From Enterococcus silesiacus (GTDB lineage Bacteria; Bacillota; Bacilli; Lactobacillales; Enterococcaceae), in the NCBI GenBank assembly GCA_001465115.1, contig CP013614.1:868001-932000 (forward strand): DNA of 64,000 nt, written 5' to 3'. A program made the position numbers and the translations under genes. Below, piece after piece: positions 33,021 through 63,977 of the stretch (its first letter is position 1; every line of letters starts with the position of its first letter). The notes beneath the pieces are model-generated. The model was not told where the DNA came from. It worked only from the letters and a program-made list of their open reading frames with translations, and searched no databases.

Positions 33021-33145
33021 AGGTTCGTCTTCAGGGGCAGGGTGCAATTCCCGACCGGTGGTTATAGTCCACGACCTACTTCATTTGAAGTGGCTGAATT
33101 GGTGAAATTCCAATACCGACAGTAAAGTCTGGATAAAGAAGATAG
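33021..33145 (+). promoter_or_regulatory. FMN riboswitch (RFN element)
   Basis: Senses flavin mononucleotide and controls riboflavin genes. Conserved blocks are present in order: TCTTCAGGGGCAGGGTG, ATTCCCGACCGGTGGT, AGTCCACGA, a variable hairpin (CTTCATTTGAAG), GGTGAAATTCCA, ACCGACAGT, and AAGTCTGGATAAAGAAGA; the outer helix pairs TCTTC (33028) with GAAGA (33138). It is followed by its own terminator and, 520 bases on, ribU. Confidence 0.95.
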
Positions 33146-33184
33146 GGCTTATTTGAATTGGCATTTTTCAGATAAGATAACTCT

Positions 33185-54286: not shown

Positions 54287-55267
54287 ATGAGAGCCATTGA
54301 GTTATCATTTGATGGGAATCAAGCGGGCTTAAAGATAAATGACACAGCAGCAGTACCAGTTAGAAAAAAAGGTCAGTTACTGATCCAGGTCCAAGCAGCA
54401 GCGGTCAATCGGACAGATTTAGTCGCTAAAGAAACGGGGAATTTACCTAAAGGAAACCCTATTTTAGGCGTTGAAGTTTCTGGAACAGTCGTTGCGAGTG
54501 AATCGGCACGATTTCCTTGTGGTACGCGTGTTATGGGACTTGTAAATGGTGGTGGCTATGCTGAATACGCCGTGATGAATGTTGGAAATGCCATGCCCTT
54601 ATCTGAACAATTGACATTTGAAGAAGGAGCTGCAATTCCAGAGGTTTTTCTTACAGCGTATCAAACGCTATTTTGGCTAGGAAAATTGCAGGCTACAGAG
54701 TCAGTGTTGATTCATGCTGGTGCTAGTGGCGTAGGAACGGCTGCGATTCAGTTAGCTAAACAACTAACGTCTGCTAAAATATTCGTTACTGCGAGCTCGT
54801 CGGCTAAGCTCGAGTTATGTCAGTCATTGGGAGTGGATGTTCTTATTAATTATCATGAAGAGGATTTTAGCCAAAGGATTATTCAAGAGACTTTAGGCCA
54901 AGGTGTGAACGTGATTCTAGATTTTATCGGAGCTTCTTATTGGGAAAAAAATCTAGCTAGCATTGGGACTGATGGTCACTTGATTTTGATTGGTATTTTA
55001 GGTGGAACAATTGTTCAAGATGTTAATCTGATGACTTTATTGCAAAAACGGATTACCGTTAGCGGGACATTGCTTACTCCACGGAGCGATGCTTATAAAG
55101 CTGAGTTGACTAAGGAGTTTGTTGCAAAGACGAGCGAGTTATTTGCAGTAAGTAAACTAAGGCCAATCATCGACGCTGTATTTGAACTTGAAAAGGCAGA
55201 AGAGGCGCAACAATACATGGCTAGCAACAAAAATAAAGGGAAAATTATTTTAAAAGTAAGTAACTAA
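54287..55267 (+). CDS. Zinc-type alcohol dehydrogenase-like NADPH:quinone oxidoreductase
   Basis: MDR-superfamily oxidoreductase, 326 residues. GroES-like domain (1-125: VQAAAVNRTDLVAKE, ILGVEVSGTVV), then a Rossmann domain with IHAGASGVGTAAIQLAKQL (about 142-160) and VILDFIGASYW. No zinc-ligand Cys/His pattern, so it is the quinone reductase (QOR) type. Prefers NADPH by analogy. GGAGGTG precedes the ATG. The next genes are the aro operon, transcribed from a separate promoter. Confidence 0.88.
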   Translation: MRAIELSFDGNQAGLKINDTAAVPVRKKGQLLIQVQAAAVNRTDLVAKETGNLPKGNPILGVEVSGTVVASESARFPCGTRVMGLVNGGGYAEYAVMNVGNAMPLSEQLTFEEGAAIPEVFLTAYQTLFWLGKLQATESVLIHAGASGVGTAAIQLAKQLTSAKIFVTASSSAKLELCQSLGVDVLINYHEEDFSQRIIQETLGQGVNVILDFIGASYWEKNLASIGTDGHLILIGILGGTIVQDVNLMTLLQKRITVSGTLLTPRSDAYKAELTKEFVAKTSELFAVSKLRPIIDAVFELEKAEEAQQYMASNKNKGKIILKVSN

Positions 55268-55322
55268 TAAGTATGAATGCAAGAAAATAAGCCAGTATTT
55301 TTAAATTTAACAAGAAAAAATG

Positions 55323-55351
55323 TTGACACTGAGTTTTAGTAGGTATATACT
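55323..55351 (+). promoter_or_regulatory. aro operon promoter
   Basis: TTGACA (55323-55328), 17-base spacer, TATACT (55346-55351): the strongest consensus promoter in the window. Transcription should start near 55358, giving a leader of about 310 bases before aroE. Confidence 0.85.
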
Positions 55352-55391
55352 GAGAACAATTCTTAAATAAATCAGTTACGGAGTGATTCAT

Positions 55392-55454
55392 ATGACAACC
55401 ATGAAGCATAACCAATTACAACTGAATAATTATTACTTTAGCTATTTTAGATGA
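55392..55454 (+). CDS. Leader peptide rich in Tyr and Phe, aro operon attenuator
   Basis: A 20-codon frame starting with ATG, eight bases after GGAG (55380-55383): residues 12-20 are NNYYFSYFR, with five aromatic codons in six (Tyr, Tyr, Phe, Ser, Tyr, Phe), then TGA. This is the composition expected for a ribosome-mediated attenuator that senses charged tRNA-Tyr and tRNA-Phe, the end products of the operon. It is too short to be a functional protein. Its 3' codons (55436-55453) also form one arm of the first attenuator helix. Confidence 0.75.
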   Translation: MTTMKHNQLQLNNYYFSYFR

Positions 55455-55634
55455 GTTTGTATTCATAACATTATGGATGCAGACTAGCAAGTTTGTATCT
55501 ATGATGGCTAGGGGATTTTGAGATGACTTTCAGCCGCGTAGATGAGAAAATCTATAGTGGCTTTTATATTACCTATTTTTTGTGAGGTGTTCGCTGTAGA
55601 TTTTTTTCTGAAAATTTACGTGAACACCTTTTTT
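55436..55634 (+). promoter_or_regulatory. Multi-helix transcription attenuator of the aro operon
   Basis: Six segments can pair in alternative ways. A 55436-55453 with B 55496-55513 (about 17 pairs, one mismatch); B ATCTA/GGCT (55497, 55506) with C AGCC/TAGAT (55532, 55539); C with D (AGCCGC-TAGAT, 55532-55543, with ATCTA-GTGGCT, 55550-55562); D 55547-55557 with E 55594-55604 (11 pairs); E 55585-55604 with F 55611-55629 (about 19 pairs, one bulge) plus T6, the terminator. A blocked by a stalled ribosome gives B:C, D:E and read-through; A free gives A:B, C:D, E:F and termination. Confidence 0.7.
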
Positions 55635-55667
55635 GTTTGAGAAAAATTGCTTTTAGGAGGAAACAAG

Positions 55668-56537
55668 ATGGAAAACAAGATTACAGGCCACACTCGATTG
55701 GTTGCGTTATTTGCTACACCGATTCGTCACAGTGTTTCACCAATGATCCATAATACAGCGTTTCAAGCGTTAGGAATCGATGCGGTGTATCTTGCTTTCG
55801 AAGTTGGAACAGCTGGGTTAGAGCAAGCGATTGATTCAATTAAGAATTTGGACATGATGGGCGCAAACTTATCTATGCCAAATAAAATTTTAGCAGTAGA
55901 GTACATGGATGAATTAAGCGAGGCTGCTCGCTTGATAGGAGCGGTCAACACAATTACCAATGATCAGGGGAAACTAACTGGGCATAACACAGACGGAACT
56001 GGATTTATGAGAAGTCTGAAAGATATTGAGGTTGATATCATCGGTAAAAAAATGACGATCATCGGTGCAGGTGGTGCGGCTACAGCGATCATTGTTCAAG
56101 CAGCTTTAGATGGTGTCAAGGAAATTACTGTTTATAACCGAAAAGATGATTTCTATGACAAAATCAAAGAGAAACTCGCTTATATTTCAGAAAATACAAA
56201 CTGTACGATTACTTTAAACGATTTATCTGATGAAACTAGCTTAGCGAAAGATGTAGCTGAAAGTGCGTTATTATTAAATGCAACGGGTGTTGGAATGAAA
56301 CCATTGCAAGAGCAAACACCGATTCAAGATTTTTCTATCATTCGTCCAGACTTGGCTGTTTGTGACGTTATCTATACACCTAGAGAAACAGAATTTCTCA
56401 AACAAGCTCGTTTACGTGGGGCTAAAACCAATAACGGTTTAGGCATGCTGCTTTACCAAGGTGCCGCAGCATTTGAAAAGTGGACTGGACAAGAAATGCC
56501 AATAGAAATCGTAAAACCAATTATCGAAAACAACTAA
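55668..56537 (+). CDS. aroE: Shikimate dehydrogenase
   Basis: Reduces 3-dehydroshikimate to shikimate with NADPH. N-terminal substrate domain (FATPIRHSVSPMIHNTAFQA, about residues 13-32; NLSMPNK with the catalytic Lys; GAVNTI; HNTDGTGFM) and a Rossmann domain (IIGAGGAATAI, about 128-138; YNRK). 289 residues. AGGAGG at 55655 supports ATG 55668; an upstream TTG is inside the terminator tail. First structural gene behind the leader attenuator. Confidence 0.95.
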   Translation: MENKITGHTRLVALFATPIRHSVSPMIHNTAFQALGIDAVYLAFEVGTAGLEQAIDSIKNLDMMGANLSMPNKILAVEYMDELSEAARLIGAVNTITNDQGKLTGHNTDGTGFMRSLKDIEVDIIGKKMTIIGAGGAATAIIVQAALDGVKEITVYNRKDDFYDKIKEKLAYISENTNCTITLNDLSDETSLAKDVAESALLLNATGVGMKPLQEQTPIQDFSIIRPDLAVCDVIYTPRETEFLKQARLRGAKTNNGLGMLLYQGAAAFEKWTGQEMPIEIVKPIIENN

Positions 56538-56566: not shown

Positions 56567-57589
56567 ATGATCGTAATTATGAAATCAGAAGCAACGAAAG
56601 CGCAAATCAAATCAGTGATCGAACGAGTGAAAAAAGAAGGACTAGAAGTTCATCTAAGTGAGGGTAAGGAACAAACAATCATTGGCTTGGTTGGTGACAC
56701 AAGAAAAATGCAGGATGTGGCATTTAATAGTTACGATGGTGTTGAAAATGCAGTCAGAATATCTTTGACATACAAACTAACAAGTCGTGAGTTTCATCCA
56801 GAAAACACAATTGTTGATGTCGCTGGTGTGAAAATTGGTGATGGCAGTATGACAATGATGGCAGGACCTTGTTCAATCGAAAGTTTAGATCAGATCCGTG
56901 AATGCGCCAGAATCGCGAAAGCAGGCGGGGCAACGGTTTTACGAGGAGGTGCTTTTAAACCAAGAACCTCTCCCTACGCTTTCCAAGGCTTAGAAGAAGA
57001 AGGCTTAAAATATATTCGTCAAGCAGCAGATGAATTTGATATGAAGGTCATTACAGAGGTTATGGACGAAGGGCACATCGATATGATTGCTGAGTACAGT
57101 GATATTTTACAAATCGGTGCTAGAAATATGCAAAATTTTAAATTGCTACAAGCAGTTGGCAAAACTGGTAAACCAATTGGCTTAAAACGAGGTATTTCTG
57201 GTACAATTGATGAGTGGCTAAATGCTGCAGAATATATCGCAGCACAAGGTAATTTCAATGTGGTTTTTATTGAACGTGGTATTCGTACGTATGAAACGGC
57301 AACACGTAACACGCTGGATTTAAGTGCTGTTCCATTGATTAAAAAATTAAGTCATTTCCCAATCATCGTTGATCCGAGTCACGGTGTCGGAATTTGGGAT
57401 CTTGTTCCTCCAATGGCACGAGCAGGTGTTGCCTCTGGCGCGGATGGCTTGATTGTTGAAATTCATCCAGATCCAGTCAACGCTTGGTCTGATGGACCAC
57501 AATCACTAAATGAAAAAACATACATGCGCATGATGGAAGAAGTTCATATTATAGAAAAAGCAATGAAAGAAATCAACGCATTAGGCTAA
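56567..57589 (+). CDS. aroF: 3-deoxy-7-phosphoheptulonate (DAHP) synthase, AroF/AroG-beta type
   Basis: Condenses phosphoenolpyruvate with erythrose 4-phosphate, the committed shikimate-pathway step. Residues 1-70 are a ferredoxin-like regulatory domain, as in Thermotoga-type enzymes; the barrel follows with AGPCSIESLDQ (about 99-109), LRGGAFKPRTSPYAFQG (about 127-143), IGARNMQNF and VDPSHGVG. No chorismate mutase domain is fused, unlike B. subtilis AroA(G). 340 residues. Likely feedback-inhibited by Phe or Tyr through the N-domain (family knowledge). Confidence 0.93.
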   Translation: MIVIMKSEATKAQIKSVIERVKKEGLEVHLSEGKEQTIIGLVGDTRKMQDVAFNSYDGVENAVRISLTYKLTSREFHPENTIVDVAGVKIGDGSMTMMAGPCSIESLDQIRECARIAKAGGATVLRGGAFKPRTSPYAFQGLEEEGLKYIRQAADEFDMKVITEVMDEGHIDMIAEYSDILQIGARNMQNFKLLQAVGKTGKPIGLKRGISGTIDEWLNAAEYIAAQGNFNVVFIERGIRTYETATRNTLDLSAVPLIKKLSHFPIIVDPSHGVGIWDLVPPMARAGVASGADGLIVEIHPDPVNAWSDGPQSLNEKTYMRMMEEVHIIEKAMKEINALG

Positions 57590-57648: not shown

Positions 57649-58710
57649 ATGAAACTCACAGTAAATCTACCAAACCATTCTTATGATTTGAGCATTGAAG
57701 CAGGCTTATTGAAAAGTATTGGTTCTTGGGCGAAAGAGTTATGGTCACCGCAAAAGATCGTGATCATAACAGATACAAATGTTCATCCTTTGTATGGTGA
57801 TCAAGTTTTCAAAAGTTTGAAAGAAGCAAATTTTGAAGTGTCAACTTTTGTGATCGATGCAGGTGAGCAAAGTAAAAGTTTGACTGTAGCGGCTGAAATC
57901 TATGATTTTTTGGCAGATGAAGGTATGACTAGAAGTGATGGAATCATCGCTCTAGGTGGTGGAGTGGTTGGTGATTTAGCAGGTTTCGTTGCTTCAACCT
58001 ATATGCGTGGACTTCATTTTTTACAAGTCCCAACAACCTTATTGGCGCAAGTTGATAGTAGCATCGGCGGTAAGACAGCTGTTAATACTACTAAAGCTAA
58101 AAATTTGGTAGGTACATTTGCACAGCCAGATGGGGTTTTGATTGATCCTGAAACGTTGAACACATTAGAGGTGAGACGCATCAGAGAAGGAATCGCTGAA
58201 ATCATCAAATCTGCTGCAATTGCAGATAAAGACTTATGGCAAGAACTTGACGAACTGGTTGATGAACAGGATTTGATCGTGCATGCAACAGAGATCATTG
58301 CTGCTTGTTGTAAGATAAAGCGGAAAGTTGTAGAAGAAGATGAACTAGACAATGGGGTTCGTTTACTCCTCAACTTTGGTCATACAATCGGTCATGCCTT
58401 AGAAAATACTGCAGGCTATGGTAATTTAACTCACGGTGAAGGTGTCGCAATCGGGATGAGTCAAATCACTAGAGTAGCCGAAAGCAAACAGCTGACGCCA
58501 ATTGGTACGACCGAGCAATTAAATAAAATGATTCAAAAATTTCATTTACCAATCAGATCAAATCAGTGGAATCAAGAGCAGTTATACACTGCCTTGACTC
58601 ATGATAAAAAAGCACGCGGCGGAAAAATTAATATTATTTTGTTAGAATCGATTGGCGCAGCAAAGATCGTTCGTATTCCAATTGAAGAAATGAAAAGTTA
58701 TTTAGATTAG
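57649..58710 (+). CDS. aroB: 3-dehydroquinate synthase
   Basis: Second shikimate-pathway step. NAD-binding [16 protein letters not shown] (about residues 102-117), [19 protein letters not shown] (about 127-145), zinc ligands in [10 protein letters not shown] (Glu), [11 protein letters not shown] and [11 protein letters not shown] (His). 353 residues, normal. A paralogue-like degenerate protein is at 46998. AAGGAG precedes the ATG. Confidence 0.97.
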
Positions 58711-58843
58711 CTAGCTTCAAGAGCTAGCCTTTCGGTAAAAAGACAAAATCTGATTGTGGCAAAAAACGCCACCCTTTGATTTTCCTATTTTCCTGTCAAG
58801 GCTGACCAAGCTCTTTCAACTTTTAAAATTAGGAGGAAATCAT

Positions 58844-60010
58844 ATGCGTTTTATTACAGCCGGAGAATCACACGGGCCAGAATTAACAGCAATTATAGAA
58901 GGATTACCAGCAGGGTTGCCATTGTCACCAGAGGATATTAATTTGGAGTTAGCTAGAAGACAAGGCGGCTATGGGCGTGGTGGTAGAATGTTGATTGAAA
59001 AAGATCAAGTAAGAATCACTTCTGGTATACGTCACGGAAAAACATTGGGGTCACCAGTCACACTTGTCGTTGAGAATAAAGATTGGAAAAACTGGACATC
59101 TGTTATGTCGATTGAAGAAGTTACAGAGAAAGAAAAGAAAATCCGCCGGGTCAATAAACCACGTCCAGGACATGCGGATCTTGTCGGTGGGATCAAATAC
59201 CAGCATGATGATCTTAGAAATGTATTAGAACGTTCCTCAGCGAGAGAAACAACGATGCGTGTGGCTATTGGCGCTGTTGCTAAAAAACTATTAAAGGAAC
59301 TAGATATCGAAGTCGCAGGTCATGTTGCAATACTAGGTGGGATCAAAGCGGAAATTCCTGATAATTTAACCGTTAAGGACATTCAAGAACGTTCGGAAAA
59401 TTCAGATGTTCGTGTACTTGACCCTTCAGTTGAACAAGACATTCGTGATTTAATTGATCAGACAAAGAAAAATGGTGACACGATCGGCGGCGTAGTCGAA
59501 GTTGTTGTGGGCGGTGTGCCAATAGGTCTAGGCAGCTATGTTCAGTGGGATCGCAAGTTAGATGCAAAAATCGCTCAAGCTGTAACAAGTATCAATGCAT
59601 TTAAGGGCGTTGAATTTGGGATCGGTTTTGAAATGGGCTTTAAACCTGGCAGCCAAGTCATGGATGAGATTGTTTGGGATAAAAAGACGGGCTATACAAG
59701 AACATCAAATAATCTAGGTGGTTTTGAAGGTGGTATGACAAATGGCATGCCAATTATTGTTAGAGGAGTGATGAAGCCTATTCCGACCTTATATAAGCCG
59801 TTACAAAGCGTCAACATCGATACAAAAGAACCGTATAAAGCAAGTGTCGAGCGTTCTGATAGCACAGCTGTGCCAGCTGCAAGCGTCGTTTGTGAAGCCG
59901 TTGTAGCAACAGAAGTTGCCAAAGCGATGTTGGAAAAATTCGGCAGTGATGCTTTTGCACAAATGAAAGCAGAAGTTGAATCGTATCGTCGCTATACTCA
60001 AACGTTTTAA
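58844..60010 (+). CDS. aroC: Chorismate synthase
   Basis: FMN-dependent conversion of EPSP to chorismate. Signatures [18 protein letters not shown] (about residues 3-20), [27 protein letters not shown] and the C-terminal [15 protein letters not shown] start at ATG 58844 after AGGAGG; longer in-frame starts read through the intergenic hairpins. 388 residues, normal. The 133-base gap after aroB holds two small hairpins (58710-58728, 58756-58772) without good T-runs. Confidence 0.96.
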
Positions 60011-60039: not shown

Positions 60040-61137
60040 ATGAATAAGCAGGTTTTGATTATCGGTCTAGGTTTGATCGGCAGCTCGTTAGCATTGTGCA
60101 TAAAAAAACAACATCCATCCGTGACGATTATTGGGGTCGATCAGCAAGAAACATCTGAAGATTTTGCACTAAAACGCCAAATGATTGATCAAAAAGGGTC
60201 GTCCATAGAGGCTGCAGCAGTTCAGGCAGATGTCATTTTCTTATGTACACCTGTTAAGAGTATGTTGAAGCAATTGATATTATTAGGGACATTGCCCTTA
60301 AAAAAAGATGTCATTATTTCTGACGTGGGCAGTACCAAACTTGAAATCATGGCAACAGCTCAAAAAGCTGACTTAGAAACCTTTATCGGCGGACATCCAA
60401 TGGCAGGCTCGCATAAATCAGGTGTGACTGCAGCCGATGAAAACTTATTTGAGAATGCTTACTATATTTTAACTTCATCAGAGCCAGAAAAACAACGGCA
60501 AGTAAATGAGCTGCAGCAATTATTACAAGGAACTAGAGCAAAATTTGTGGTTCTTACAGCTGAAGAACATGATCAAATTACAGGAATGCTCAGTCATTTG
60601 CCTCATATTATTGCAGCAGGTTTAGTTAATCAAAGTAAAGAGTTCAATGAAGAGCATCCTCGTTCACGTCAATTAGCCGCTGGAGGTTTTCGTGATATTA
60701 CACGTATCGCTTCGTCTGACCCGCAAATGTGGACCGATATTTTGCTAAGTAATAAAGAAGCATTATTAGAATTAATGAATGCGTGGCAAGCAGAAATGAA
60801 TCAAGTTTCAAAATGGCTTCAAAACGAAAATAAAGAAGCAATTTTTCAATTTTTTTATGAAGCAAAGGAAACAAGAAACCAAATGCCAGTACACAAAGAA
60901 GGCGCAATACCAGCGTTTCATGATTTATTCGTCGATGTTCCTGATGTTCCTGGTGTGATTGCAGAGATTACAGGTTTATTAGGTAAAGCAAAGCTTTCGT
61001 TGATTAATTTGAAAATTCTTGAAACAAGAGAAGATATTTATGGTATTTTACAGTTGACTTTTAAGCGTCAGGAAGACTTAGAACAGGCAAAAGAAACAAT
61101 CGAAAAAGAGACAGATTATTTGTGTTATGAAAAATAA
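60040..61137 (+). CDS. tyrA: Prephenate dehydrogenase with C-terminal ACT domain
   Basis: Makes 4-hydroxyphenylpyruvate for tyrosine. Rossmann motif IIGLGLIGSSLALCIKK (about residues 6-22), HPMAGSHKSG (about 121-130) and GGFRDITRIASSDPQMWTDI (about 222-241). Residues ~295-365 form an ACT domain (VPGVIAEITGLLGKAKLSLI), the site of tyrosine feedback in related enzymes. 365 residues; no chorismate mutase fused. Cotranscribed with aroC 29 bases upstream. Confidence 0.93.
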   Translation: MNKQVLIIGLGLIGSSLALCIKKQHPSVTIIGVDQQETSEDFALKRQMIDQKGSSIEAAAVQADVIFLCTPVKSMLKQLILLGTLPLKKDVIISDVGSTKLEIMATAQKADLETFIGGHPMAGSHKSGVTAADENLFENAYYILTSSEPEKQRQVNELQQLLQGTRAKFVVLTAEEHDQITGMLSHLPHIIAAGLVNQSKEFNEEHPRSRQLAAGGFRDITRIASSDPQMWTDILLSNKEALLELMNAWQAEMNQVSKWLQNENKEAIFQFFYEAKETRNQMPVHKEGAIPAFHDLFVDVPDVPGVIAEITGLLGKAKLSLINLKILETREDIYGILQLTFKRQEDLEQAKETIEKETDYLCYEK

Positions 61138-61180: not shown

Positions 61181-62602
<1,422 letters not shown>

Positions 62603-62616
62603 ATGGAGGAACAAAG

Positions 62617-63120
62617 ATGAAGGGAATTATTTTAATTGGTTTTATGGGAGCAGGGAAAACAACAGTTGGAAAGCTAATTTCAGAGCAAACTGGCATGGAA
62701 CATATTGATTTTGATGATAAAATAGTTGAAGAAATCGGCATGACGATTCAAGAATACTTTGATTTGCACGGAGAAGAAGCATTTAGAGAACGAGAAACAA
62801 ACGTCTTGAAACGCTATCTAAACCATAACCAAGTTGTCTCAACTGGTGGTGGTATTGTAATGCGAGCAGAAAATAGAGCACTTTTAAAACAAATGGCACC
62901 TGTTGTATATTTACAAACGAAACCAGAAGTCTTTATCCCAAGACTGAAACATGATCATACAACAGTTAGACCATTAGTTGTTTCAAAATCTCCAGAAGAA
63001 ATCCAGCAGGTTTTTGAGCCGCGCATTCCATTTTACGAGGAAAGTGCCAGTTTAATTGTGGAAACAGACGATCGGACACCCGAGGAGATCGTAAATGAAA
63101 TCTTAGAGAATATTAAGTAG
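62617..63120 (+). CDS. aroK: Shikimate kinase
   Basis: Phosphorylates shikimate at the 3-hydroxyl. Walker A GFMGAGKTTVGKLI (about residues 8-21), HIDFDDKIVEEIGMTIQEYF with the DxD, FRERETNVLKRY, STGGGIVMR (about 76-84) and R in TTVRPLV. 167 residues, normal. AGGAACAAAG precedes the ATG; 14 bases after aroA. Confidence 0.96.
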   Translation: MKGIILIGFMGAGKTTVGKLISEQTGMEHIDFDDKIVEEIGMTIQEYFDLHGEEAFRERETNVLKRYLNHNQVVSTGGGIVMRAENRALLKQMAPVVYLQTKPEVFIPRLKHDHTTVRPLVVSKSPEEIQQVFEPRIPFYEESASLIVETDDRTPEEIVNEILENIK

Positions 63121-63128
63121 GTGAGTCA

Positions 63129-63977
63129 ATGAAAGTCGGTTTTTTAGGACCAGAAGCTTCTTTCACGCATAATGCCGCAAGAACAGCTTTTCCAAATGAA
63201 GAATTGATTCCTTACCATTCAATTCCAGCCTGTATCAAAGCTGTTGAATTTGGAGAGGTTGATTTAGGGGTCGTTCCGATTGAAAACACGATTGAAGGTT
63301 CCGTCAATACAACTGTCGATTATCTTTTCCATCAAACATCGATTCCAGTAGGGGCAGAAATCGTTCTACCAATCTATCAACAATTAATGGTAGCACAAAA
63401 CAACAAAGAAACTTGGTTGGCAACAACAAAAATTTTATCGCATCCACAAGCCTTAGCCCAGTCTCAAGAATTTATTCGCCAACATTTTCCAATGGCAGAA
63501 CTTGAAGCAACACCTTCAACTGCGTATGCAGCAAGTTTTGTCGCTAATCATCCAGAGCAAAAAATCGCAGCGATTGCACCAAAGTTATCAGCAAAGACAT
63601 ATAATCTTGAAATTGTTGGAAAAGATATTCAAGATGTAGCGATCAATCAAACGCGTTTTTGGGTGTTAGGGGCTGACAAAGTCGATTTACCGATTATAGC
63701 CAATGATCAAAAGCTGACAATCGCTTTGACGATGCCTGATAATATGCCGGGTGCTTTGCATAAAGCCTTATCTGCATTTAGTTGGCGAGAAATTGATTTA
63801 AGCAAAATCGAATCACGGCCGTTAAAAACAACTTTAGGAGAATACTTTTTTTTGATCGATATCAATGGTCAAAAACCGCAGCAACTAATAGAAAACGCAT
63901 TAGAAGAAATACGTTTAATGGGTGGGGCAGTTAAAATATTCGGAAATTATGCGGTCCATCCAATCAGCGGAGTATAA
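63129..63977 (+). CDS. pheA: Prephenate dehydratase
   Basis: Makes phenylpyruvate for phenylalanine. Catalytic domain: VGFLGPEASFTHNAARTAFP (about residues 2-21), VPIENTIEGSVNTTVDYL (about 53-70), and NQTRFWVLG (Thr-Arg-Phe motif, about 175). C-terminal ACT domain with the IESRPLKTTLGEYFFLIDI pattern (ESRP; Phe binding). 282 residues, the monofunctional form. GTG-type spacing AGGTGAG precedes the ATG. Last gene of the operon. Confidence 0.95.
   Translation: MKVGFLGPEASFTHNAARTAFPNEELIPYHSIPACIKAVEFGEVDLGVVPIENTIEGSVNTTVDYLFHQTSIPVGAEIVLPIYQQLMVAQNNKETWLATTKILSHPQALAQSQEFIRQHFPMAELEATPSTAYAASFVANHPEQKIAAIAPKLSAKTYNLEIVGKDIQDVAINQTRFWVLGADKVDLPIIANDQKLTIALTMPDNMPGALHKALSAFSWREIDLSKIESRPLKTTLGEYFFLIDINGQKPQQLIENALEEIRLMGGAVKIFGNYAVHPISGV

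Follow-up and report, generated by a model that had tools for sequence, protein, structure and literature searches.

The window analysed here, a stretch of 64,000 nucleotides, covers positions 868001-932000 of the 3.93 Mb genome of Enterococcus silesiacus (CP013614.1). At window positions 55323..55634 it carries a leader of chained helices directly upstream of the aroE operon. The parts of this element, in window coordinates, are:

55323..55351 (+), promoter TTGACA-17-TATACT, read from the sequence (TTGACA at 55323-55328, TATACT at 55346-55351)
55380..55383 (+), GGAG, Shine-Dalgarno of the leader ORF, read from the sequence
55392..55454 (+), leader peptide ORF, MTTMKHNQLQLNNYYFSYFR and stop, 20 codons, ending YYFSYFR (window translation; Tyr/Phe codons conserved)
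55438..55453 (+), segment A: last aromatic codons, Arg and stop; partner B (duplex energy; 99.0% of alignment cells paired)
55455..55468 (+), segment a, adjoining the stop codon; partner a' (duplex energy, covariation)
55470..55485 (+), segment a'; partner a or B (duplex energy, own-vs-swapped test; column counts weak)
55490..55511 (+), segment B; partner A, a' or C (duplex energy, own-vs-swapped tests)
55532..55544 (+), segment C; partner B or D (duplex energy, covariation)
55547..55564 (+), segment D; partner C or E (duplex energy, covariation)
55584..55605 (+), segment E; partner D or F (duplex energy, covariation)
55610..55634 (+), segment F and U-tract; E:F is the final terminator (-25.4 kcal/mol; covariation)

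The genes behind it are:

55668..56537 (+), aroE, shikimate dehydrogenase, first gene of the operon (NCBIfam TIGR00507, 223.8 bits, cut-off 200.2)
56567..57589 (+), DAHP synthase (NF006421, 498 bits, cut-off 335)
57649..58710 (+), aroB (TIGR01357, 381.8 bits, cut-off 305)
58754..60010 (+), aroC, match from residue 31 of the listed ORF (TIGR00033, 432.7 bits, cut-off 212.2)
60040..61137 (+), tyrA, prephenate dehydrogenase (NF005107, 532.8 bits, cut-off 414)
61187..62602 (+), aroA, match from residue 56 of the listed ORF (TIGR01356, 435.9 bits, cut-off 287.25)
62617..63120 (+), aroK-like, read from the sequence (no NCBIfam match at 1e-60)
63129..63977 (+), pheA, prephenate dehydratase (NF008865, 347.8 bits, cut-off 219)

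This operon is the pathway to Tyr and Phe. A second aroE-like gene, whose product has 53% identity to the operon AroE, lies outside the window at genome positions 850299-851162, and the window also holds an FMN riboswitch at 33023-33147 (+, 100.3 bits).

Direct reading confirms the layout given in the original prediction: a promoter, a 20-codon leader ending in Tyr-Tyr-Phe-Ser-Tyr-Phe-Arg and a chain of segments. The promoter has 11 of the 12 consensus bases, and promoter-like sites are equally common in shuffled sequence (2 vs 2.1). All five of the proposed pairings exist, with duplex energies of -15.9 (A:B), -16.1 (B:C), -15.2 (C:D), -15.9 (D:E) and -25.4 kcal/mol (E:F). C:D is a first, weak terminator-like hairpin and is followed by TTTTATATT. 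The whole 312 nt fold 7.1 standard deviations better than dinucleotide shuffles, none of 100 shuffles being as good; a simple terminator scan of 55250-55680, under a rule that demands a short uninterrupted hairpin, called no site. B and D are near-copies, as had been noted (11 of 13 bases identical). That these modular repeats imply growth by duplication is not a valid inference, and we rejected it: B and D share the partner C, while A, C and E share B or D, so the resemblance is forced by pairing and is no sign of duplication.

Relatives of the element were collected in several ways. Most of the copies with Tyr/Phe leaders were found with a pattern that itself contains Tyr/Phe codons; the aroE-linked and model-based sets were not. 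The pattern search matched 187 of 395 genomes (at most 2 mismatches), a count that includes chance matches and is no measure of element frequency. Of 226 pattern places, seven without the B motif were dropped: L108, L110, L123, L171 (Borreliella), L185 (an Erysipelotrichaceae bin), L197 and L215, the last two of which have a good leader and may be real copies. The remaining 219 were thinned at about 93% similarity to 109, and L169 was left out to give alignment A1, with 108 diverged copies (the 3' ends of 9 rows were set by hand).

The leader frame is conserved. Among the 163 distinct copies left of the 219, an ATG with a Shine-Dalgarno-like site stands in frame in 159, and the other two frames have one in 0/163 and 1/163; the stop codon lies directly before segment a in 152 copies, the other 11 reading on. 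An aroE match was present in 103 genomes of the family, and we read the region upstream of it in 90. The element is present in 73, and in all 73 the two codons before a conserved TTTAGC (TTTGGC in one) specify Tyr or Phe. Conservation of frame and codons in relatives, which the original prediction had named as support, is found. It is absent from 17 regions, 14 of them in one genus. In records of E. mundtii, E. durans and E. villorum the same leader precedes DAHP synthase, not aroE. Outside the family, the matches listed (at least 118 stretches) include copies in Aerococcus, Vagococcus, Lactobacillus, Alkalibacterium and Atopococcus records. In a phylum sample searched beyond the order with model R1, under the stricter filters of a large search, 3 of 299 genomes matched, all of them Lactobacillales; a bin (L193) whose label is Bacillales nevertheless carries the complete element.

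Comparison of the copies also supports the alternative helices. For each pairing, the energy with the copy's own partner was set against energies after partners had been exchanged between copies (2000 permutations). Across the 108 copies all five pairings of the original prediction favoured their own partner, with z of -8.1 (A:B), -3.7 (B:C), -9.7 (C:D), -15.8 (D:E) and -28.0 (E:F); no permutation was as good for the chain pairings, save one in 2000 for B:C. Pairings outside the chain were null in eight of nine cases (|z| up to 1.3), the exception being C:F (z -6.7), which we attribute to a likeness between F and D. A further pairing outside the chain, a:B, deviates as well (z -4.1), with weak energies. 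Column covariation scores lie above all 500 shuffles for A:B, B:C, C:D, D:E, E:F and the inner hairpin. E:F has 341 alignment cells changed on both sides; A and B are nearly invariant, so that few changes back their pairings (6 such cells in A:B and 6 in B:C). The copies are related, and these counts are therefore not independent.

Two segments between A and B, here called a and a', had been missed. They pair with each other (9 pairs in which both sides have changed; own-vs-swapped z -16.1), and a' can instead take B, in the window through 16 pairs at -19.5 kcal/mol. A simpler scheme would have six segments only, A to F, with a stall on A freeing B and a/a' serving as a mere spacer hairpin. 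The strength and covariation of the five pairings fit such a scheme, and so does the weakness of the column counts for a':B, which are barely above shuffles (covariation score 23/500); the own-vs-swapped z of a':B is only -2.0 in the Trp class described below. However, every one of the 108 copies allows a' to reach B at -8 kcal/mol or better, its own B being preferred (z -9.5), RNAalifold on the mixed-class alignment picks the a':B hairpin, and a ribosome at the stop codon also masks A, a state that A alone leaves unexplained. The six-segment scheme seems to us unlikely.

We think it likely, instead, that the element is a ribosome-mediated transcription attenuator built on a relay a-a'-B-C-D-E-F, where A serves as an additional partner for B, and that its scaffold has been re-coded for Trp and for Ile/Leu/Val. 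We infer that the helices would switch as follows. When Tyr or Phe is short, the ribosome would stall on the aromatic codons within A, masking A and leaving a free; a:a' would form, B would be left free to take C, and D to take E, and D:E would block the E:F terminator, allowing the aro operon to be transcribed. When Tyr and Phe are plentiful, the ribosome would move on to the stop codon, where its front edge would cover a: a' would then pair with B, C with D and E with F, ending transcription. Without translation, A:B would enclose a:a', and C:D and E:F would form again. The a':B option can account for a ribosome at the stop codon, which would mask A and in a scheme of A to F would wrongly free B. 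The earlier idea of a Tyr/Phe attenuator with a parity right for a biosynthetic operon is retained, but the chain starts earlier than had been proposed.

Folding calculations bear on these states. The ribosome was taken to cover some 14 nt downstream of the A-site codon. Bases under the ribosome were masked in each of the 108 copies, the RNA was ended at C, D or E, and a helix was counted from 5 expected pairs upwards. At the end of C, RNA with no ribosome formed A:B in 96 copies and a:a' in 102; a ribosome placed on the stop codon gave a':B in all 108 and B:C also in 52, and one stalled at the first aromatic codon gave a:a' in 98, B:C in 101 and a':B in 16. In the model these results suit termination in the no-ribosome and stop states and a free D in the stalled state, and the masked states offer a reason for a stop codon placed directly before a. 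At the end of D, C:D wins in all states (stalled ribosome: C:D in 99/108, B:C in 9/108), and in the stop state at the end of E, D:E is found in 66/108. In the window copy D:E forms before F is made, whatever the state of the ribosome, and a stall on a later Tyr codon (mask of 26) behaves more like the stop state. At full length C:D is present in 102-104 and E:F in 106-107 of the 108 copies, A masked or not. Equilibrium folding alone thus yielded no read-through switch in the 108 copies. The full-length E. coli trpL leader, folded as a control with segment limits that we assumed, also favoured its terminator when segment 1 was masked; because this true attenuator fails equally, the equilibrium test cannot tell true from false ones. 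Since no switch appears at equilibrium, we infer that read-through would be kinetic, depending on first-formed helices that outlast the passage of RNA polymerase. The stop-state results bear on the a/a' detail, and they have lowered our confidence in the attenuator for that reason.

The original prediction knew of no description of such an element. This is half right. Homologues are in Rfam, where they carry other descriptions: the element matches the full model of RF02863 (sRNA_2410) at 56.1 bits and RF04312 (trpB motif) at 35.6 bits, both under the gathering scores (61 and 59). It is homologous to the first along the full model, which starts inside the leader ORF and is described as a small RNA gene; with the second, described as a riboswitch candidate, it shares the scaffold from a' to D, the RF04312 model ending before the second hairpin E:F that the element has. 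Nine of 20 related loci pass the RF02863 gathering score, and in the order 131 of 246 genomes have a match at E 0.001 or better, 61 of them above the cut-off. In E. silesiacus itself, model R1 (E 0.001 or better) finds the window element and two further loci, no more. One of these, at 3058450-3058653 (-), is the best RF02863 match of the genome (134.7 bits), has the leader MTHSINPQLNKAYFSYFR and precedes a TrpX-like binding protein. The other, at 834047, is the one RF04312 copy of the genome above the cut-off (60.7 bits), has the leader MNRLSKPISELNNSWQNWRR, ending NNSWQNWRR, and precedes TrpX.

These two descriptions correspond to two further explanations. Two transcripts of sRNA_2410 were detected in E. 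faecium, with RNA-seq and on Northern blots (PMC5593968), which would suit a trans-acting small RNA. However, homologues sit immediately upstream of a gene that fits their leader codons, and a terminated or processed leader transcript would give the same picture; we regard a trans-acting role as highly improbable. Under daptomycin sRNA_2410 showed a fold change of 2.3 by RNA-seq and 4.1 by qPCR (Table 2 of that paper), the text calling expression mostly uniform (PMC5593968). Charging stress may show in the leader transcript of an amino-acid transporter.

The trpB motif, of which more than 900 representatives with co-varying hairpins are described, has been published as a strong riboswitch candidate; it most often precedes an ABC transporter of the amino-acid type, and its authors could not exclude a classic attenuator (PMC11109978). 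Against a metabolite riboswitch stand the leaders of this motif. We examined 31 copies (the best-scoring 30 RF04312 loci in the family, and L277), and all 31, each above the Rfam cut-off, have a Trp-codon leader with a Shine-Dalgarno, most commonly ending SWQNWRR, and the leader ends where the A arm pairs B. The same scaffold, moreover, with other codons and other arms, precedes genes concerned with several amino acids. A riboswitch has in our view a chance as slight as that of the small RNA. In this Trp class the own-vs-swapped z values were -4.2 (A:B), -3.4 (B:C), -5.6 (C:D), -6.4 (D:E) and -8.8 (E:F), those of control pairings +2.9 (C:E), -1.7 (A:D) and within 1.3 for the other four, and the second hairpin E:F reaches -8 kcal/mol or better in 29 of the 31 copies. 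Three RF04312 matches from genomes of other orders (L278-L280) score below the cut-off, at 38.1-41.5 bits; they have no fitting leader, look like chance and were set aside.

T-boxes are the usual control of such genes in Firmicutes. A T-box or protein-controlled leader might be expected here too, since the trpX operon of Streptococcus suis is under a T-box (PMC9382623), but no T-box matched in the window at the gathering score, nor in 55250-55680 up to E 10; we give this reading next to no weight. Proteobacterial amino-acid leader families of Rfam were likewise missing from the 12 matches in 55250-55680 up to E 10.

The element belongs to a family in which three or more amino-acid specificities are represented. 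Its scaffold would also serve Trp (TrpX-family transporters and trpB) and Ile/Leu/Val (ilvA, ilvB, ilvE and LivJ-type binding proteins), the codons of the leader and the A and B arms having changed together. In family f4, Ile leaders (ending IISIIR) precede ilvE and ilvA, a Leu/Ile/Val leader (ending NLLISVIR) precedes acetolactate synthase, Ile-rich leaders precede LivJ-type binding proteins, and Phe/Tyr leaders precede prephenate dehydratase; for the LivJ and prephenate dehydratase products, NCBIfam scores are under the curated cut-offs and Pfam Peripla_BP_6 and PDT scores well over theirs. Forty further copies found with R1 in family f4, chosen regardless of their codons, all have a leader ORF, and as read these leaders are 13 Trp, 17 Tyr/Phe and 10 Ile/Leu/Val; for 9 of the forty the family of the gene behind the leader was determined. 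One of these ten, L411, has an Ile-rich leader (ending VVIINRIYIR) before a family 5 solute-binding protein gene. The arms follow the codons: in Trp copies the mean for A:B is -16.1 with their own B vs -10.6 with a Tyr-class B, and in 11 of 14 Ile/Leu/Val copies the own B is the better partner for A.

Codons and genes were compared across a wider set. Of 305 raw matches, 296 had an accepted ending and a class, 269 were not duplicates and 226 had a downstream ORF of at least 200 aa; genes were sorted by blastp against 16 reference proteins. Because copies are related and some genes were fetched from two collections, the table does not count independent events. Tyr/Phe leaders stand before aro, pheA, TrpX-family or CitMHS genes in 157 of 161 cases (AroE 50, TrpX-family 91, DAHP synthase 5, AroB 5, AroC 2, CitMHS-type 3, PheA 1), the other 4 being unassigned. 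Trp leaders stand before a TrpX-family binding protein (55) or TrpB (1) in 56 of 56, and Ile/Leu/Val leaders before ilv or liv genes in 9 of 9 (IlvE 4, IlvA 2, IlvB 2, LivJ 1), a class that in this table misses most LivJ-type copies. Among the 226 copies there was no crossing between branched-chain and aromatic leader classes.

This agreement also bears on a TnaC-like alternative, in which the nascent peptide would sense a ligand or cause arrest and the ribosome would not be waiting for charged tRNA. Many Enterococcaceae and Lactobacillus copies keep Q/K-L-N before the aromatic run at the peptide level, its Leu codon varying synonymously at one position (CTG 88, TTG 12, CTA 6, TTA 3); this conservation is not explained by pairing or by the aromatic codons, and selection perhaps extends beyond both. 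But Q-L-N is missing from many distant copies, the Trp, Ile and Leu/Ile/Val leaders are alike in codon composition and have no common peptide, and gene function tracks codon class. We judge sensing or arrest by the peptide to be quite improbable.

Both aromatic classes precede TrpX-family binding proteins. In a tree of 90 such proteins (146 thinned at 85% identity; a quick tree without bootstrap), those behind Trp leaders (34) and those behind Tyr/Phe leaders (56) are split by one branch (SH-aLRT 99), with 1 class change vs 27.6 in shuffles and none of 500 shuffles as low; the split is a single event. Against the NCBIfam TrpX cut-off of 390, the one protein scored behind a Trp leader reached 469, and four behind Tyr/Phe leaders 274 to 384. 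The TrpX-like proteins behind Tyr/Phe leaders may be Tyr/Phe transporters.

Several other genes lie behind leaders of these classes. L362, L355 and L364 have a Tyr/Phe leader (ending YFSYFR) before a membrane transporter, which is perhaps an aromatic amino acid carrier; that of L362 matches Pfam CitMHS and has no NCBIfam match at 1e-20. In L420 a Phe-rich leader (ending FFNSNFR) precedes a gene of the D-2-hydroxyacid dehydrogenase family, whose product, at a guess, acts on phenylpyruvate. L311-L314, from a genus which we take to be Streptococcus, have a Tyr/Phe leader before a TrpX-like binding protein and a permease.

The element resembles E. coli trpL and the enterobacterial trp, phe and his attenuators in its codons for the regulated amino acid, its mutually exclusive helices and its final intrinsic terminator, and as in trpL the equilibrium prefers the terminator at full length. 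It differs from them in several ways: those attenuators have four segments, whereas the element is a seven-segment relay with two terminator-like hairpins in series; its A arm is the codon run itself; and one scaffold is re-coded for several amino acids. To our knowledge, leader-peptide attenuation is considered rare in Firmicutes, where T-boxes usually do that work. His leader-peptide attenuators exist in some Firmicutes (PMC2965389, PMC9413887); by their descriptions these use classical leader-peptide attenuation, such as is proposed for the element, with His codons and with other genes and lineages. Outside Proteobacteria and Actinobacteria, Naville and Gautheret (2010) knew of no such attenuators beyond the His case that they described and the atypical leader of ermC (PMC2965389). 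The uORFC-13-1 motif, upstream of aroF in Acholeplasma, is alike as described, with a short ORF of at least one Phe codon and a terminator before a DAHP synthase gene, in a lineage other than that of the element (PMC8632094). A description of the present attenuator was not found in the literature searched, which covered few subscription papers. As a mechanism it belongs to a known kind. What appears new is the architecture of the relay, the re-coding of one scaffold for several amino acids within a single Firmicutes order, and the different reading that this gives to two Rfam families.

For the Lactobacillales as a whole, we think it very likely that these leaders constitute a general, re-codable, ribosome-read amino-acid sensor, so far for Tyr/Phe, Trp, Ile and Leu/Ile/Val, which has a seven-segment relay and two terminator-like hairpins in series, unites two Rfam families and has codons that predict the substrates of paralogous transporters. 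Such a scaffold would be re-targeted through its leader codons and matching arms much as the T-box is through its specifier codon. If this is true, a scaffold that is present across several families of one order and re-coded among them would change the picture of attenuation in Firmicutes, and two Rfam families without an established function would be explained. The specificity of transporters could then be read from leader codons, and the sensor would be a modular one, the length of its relay and its double hairpin posing kinetic questions.
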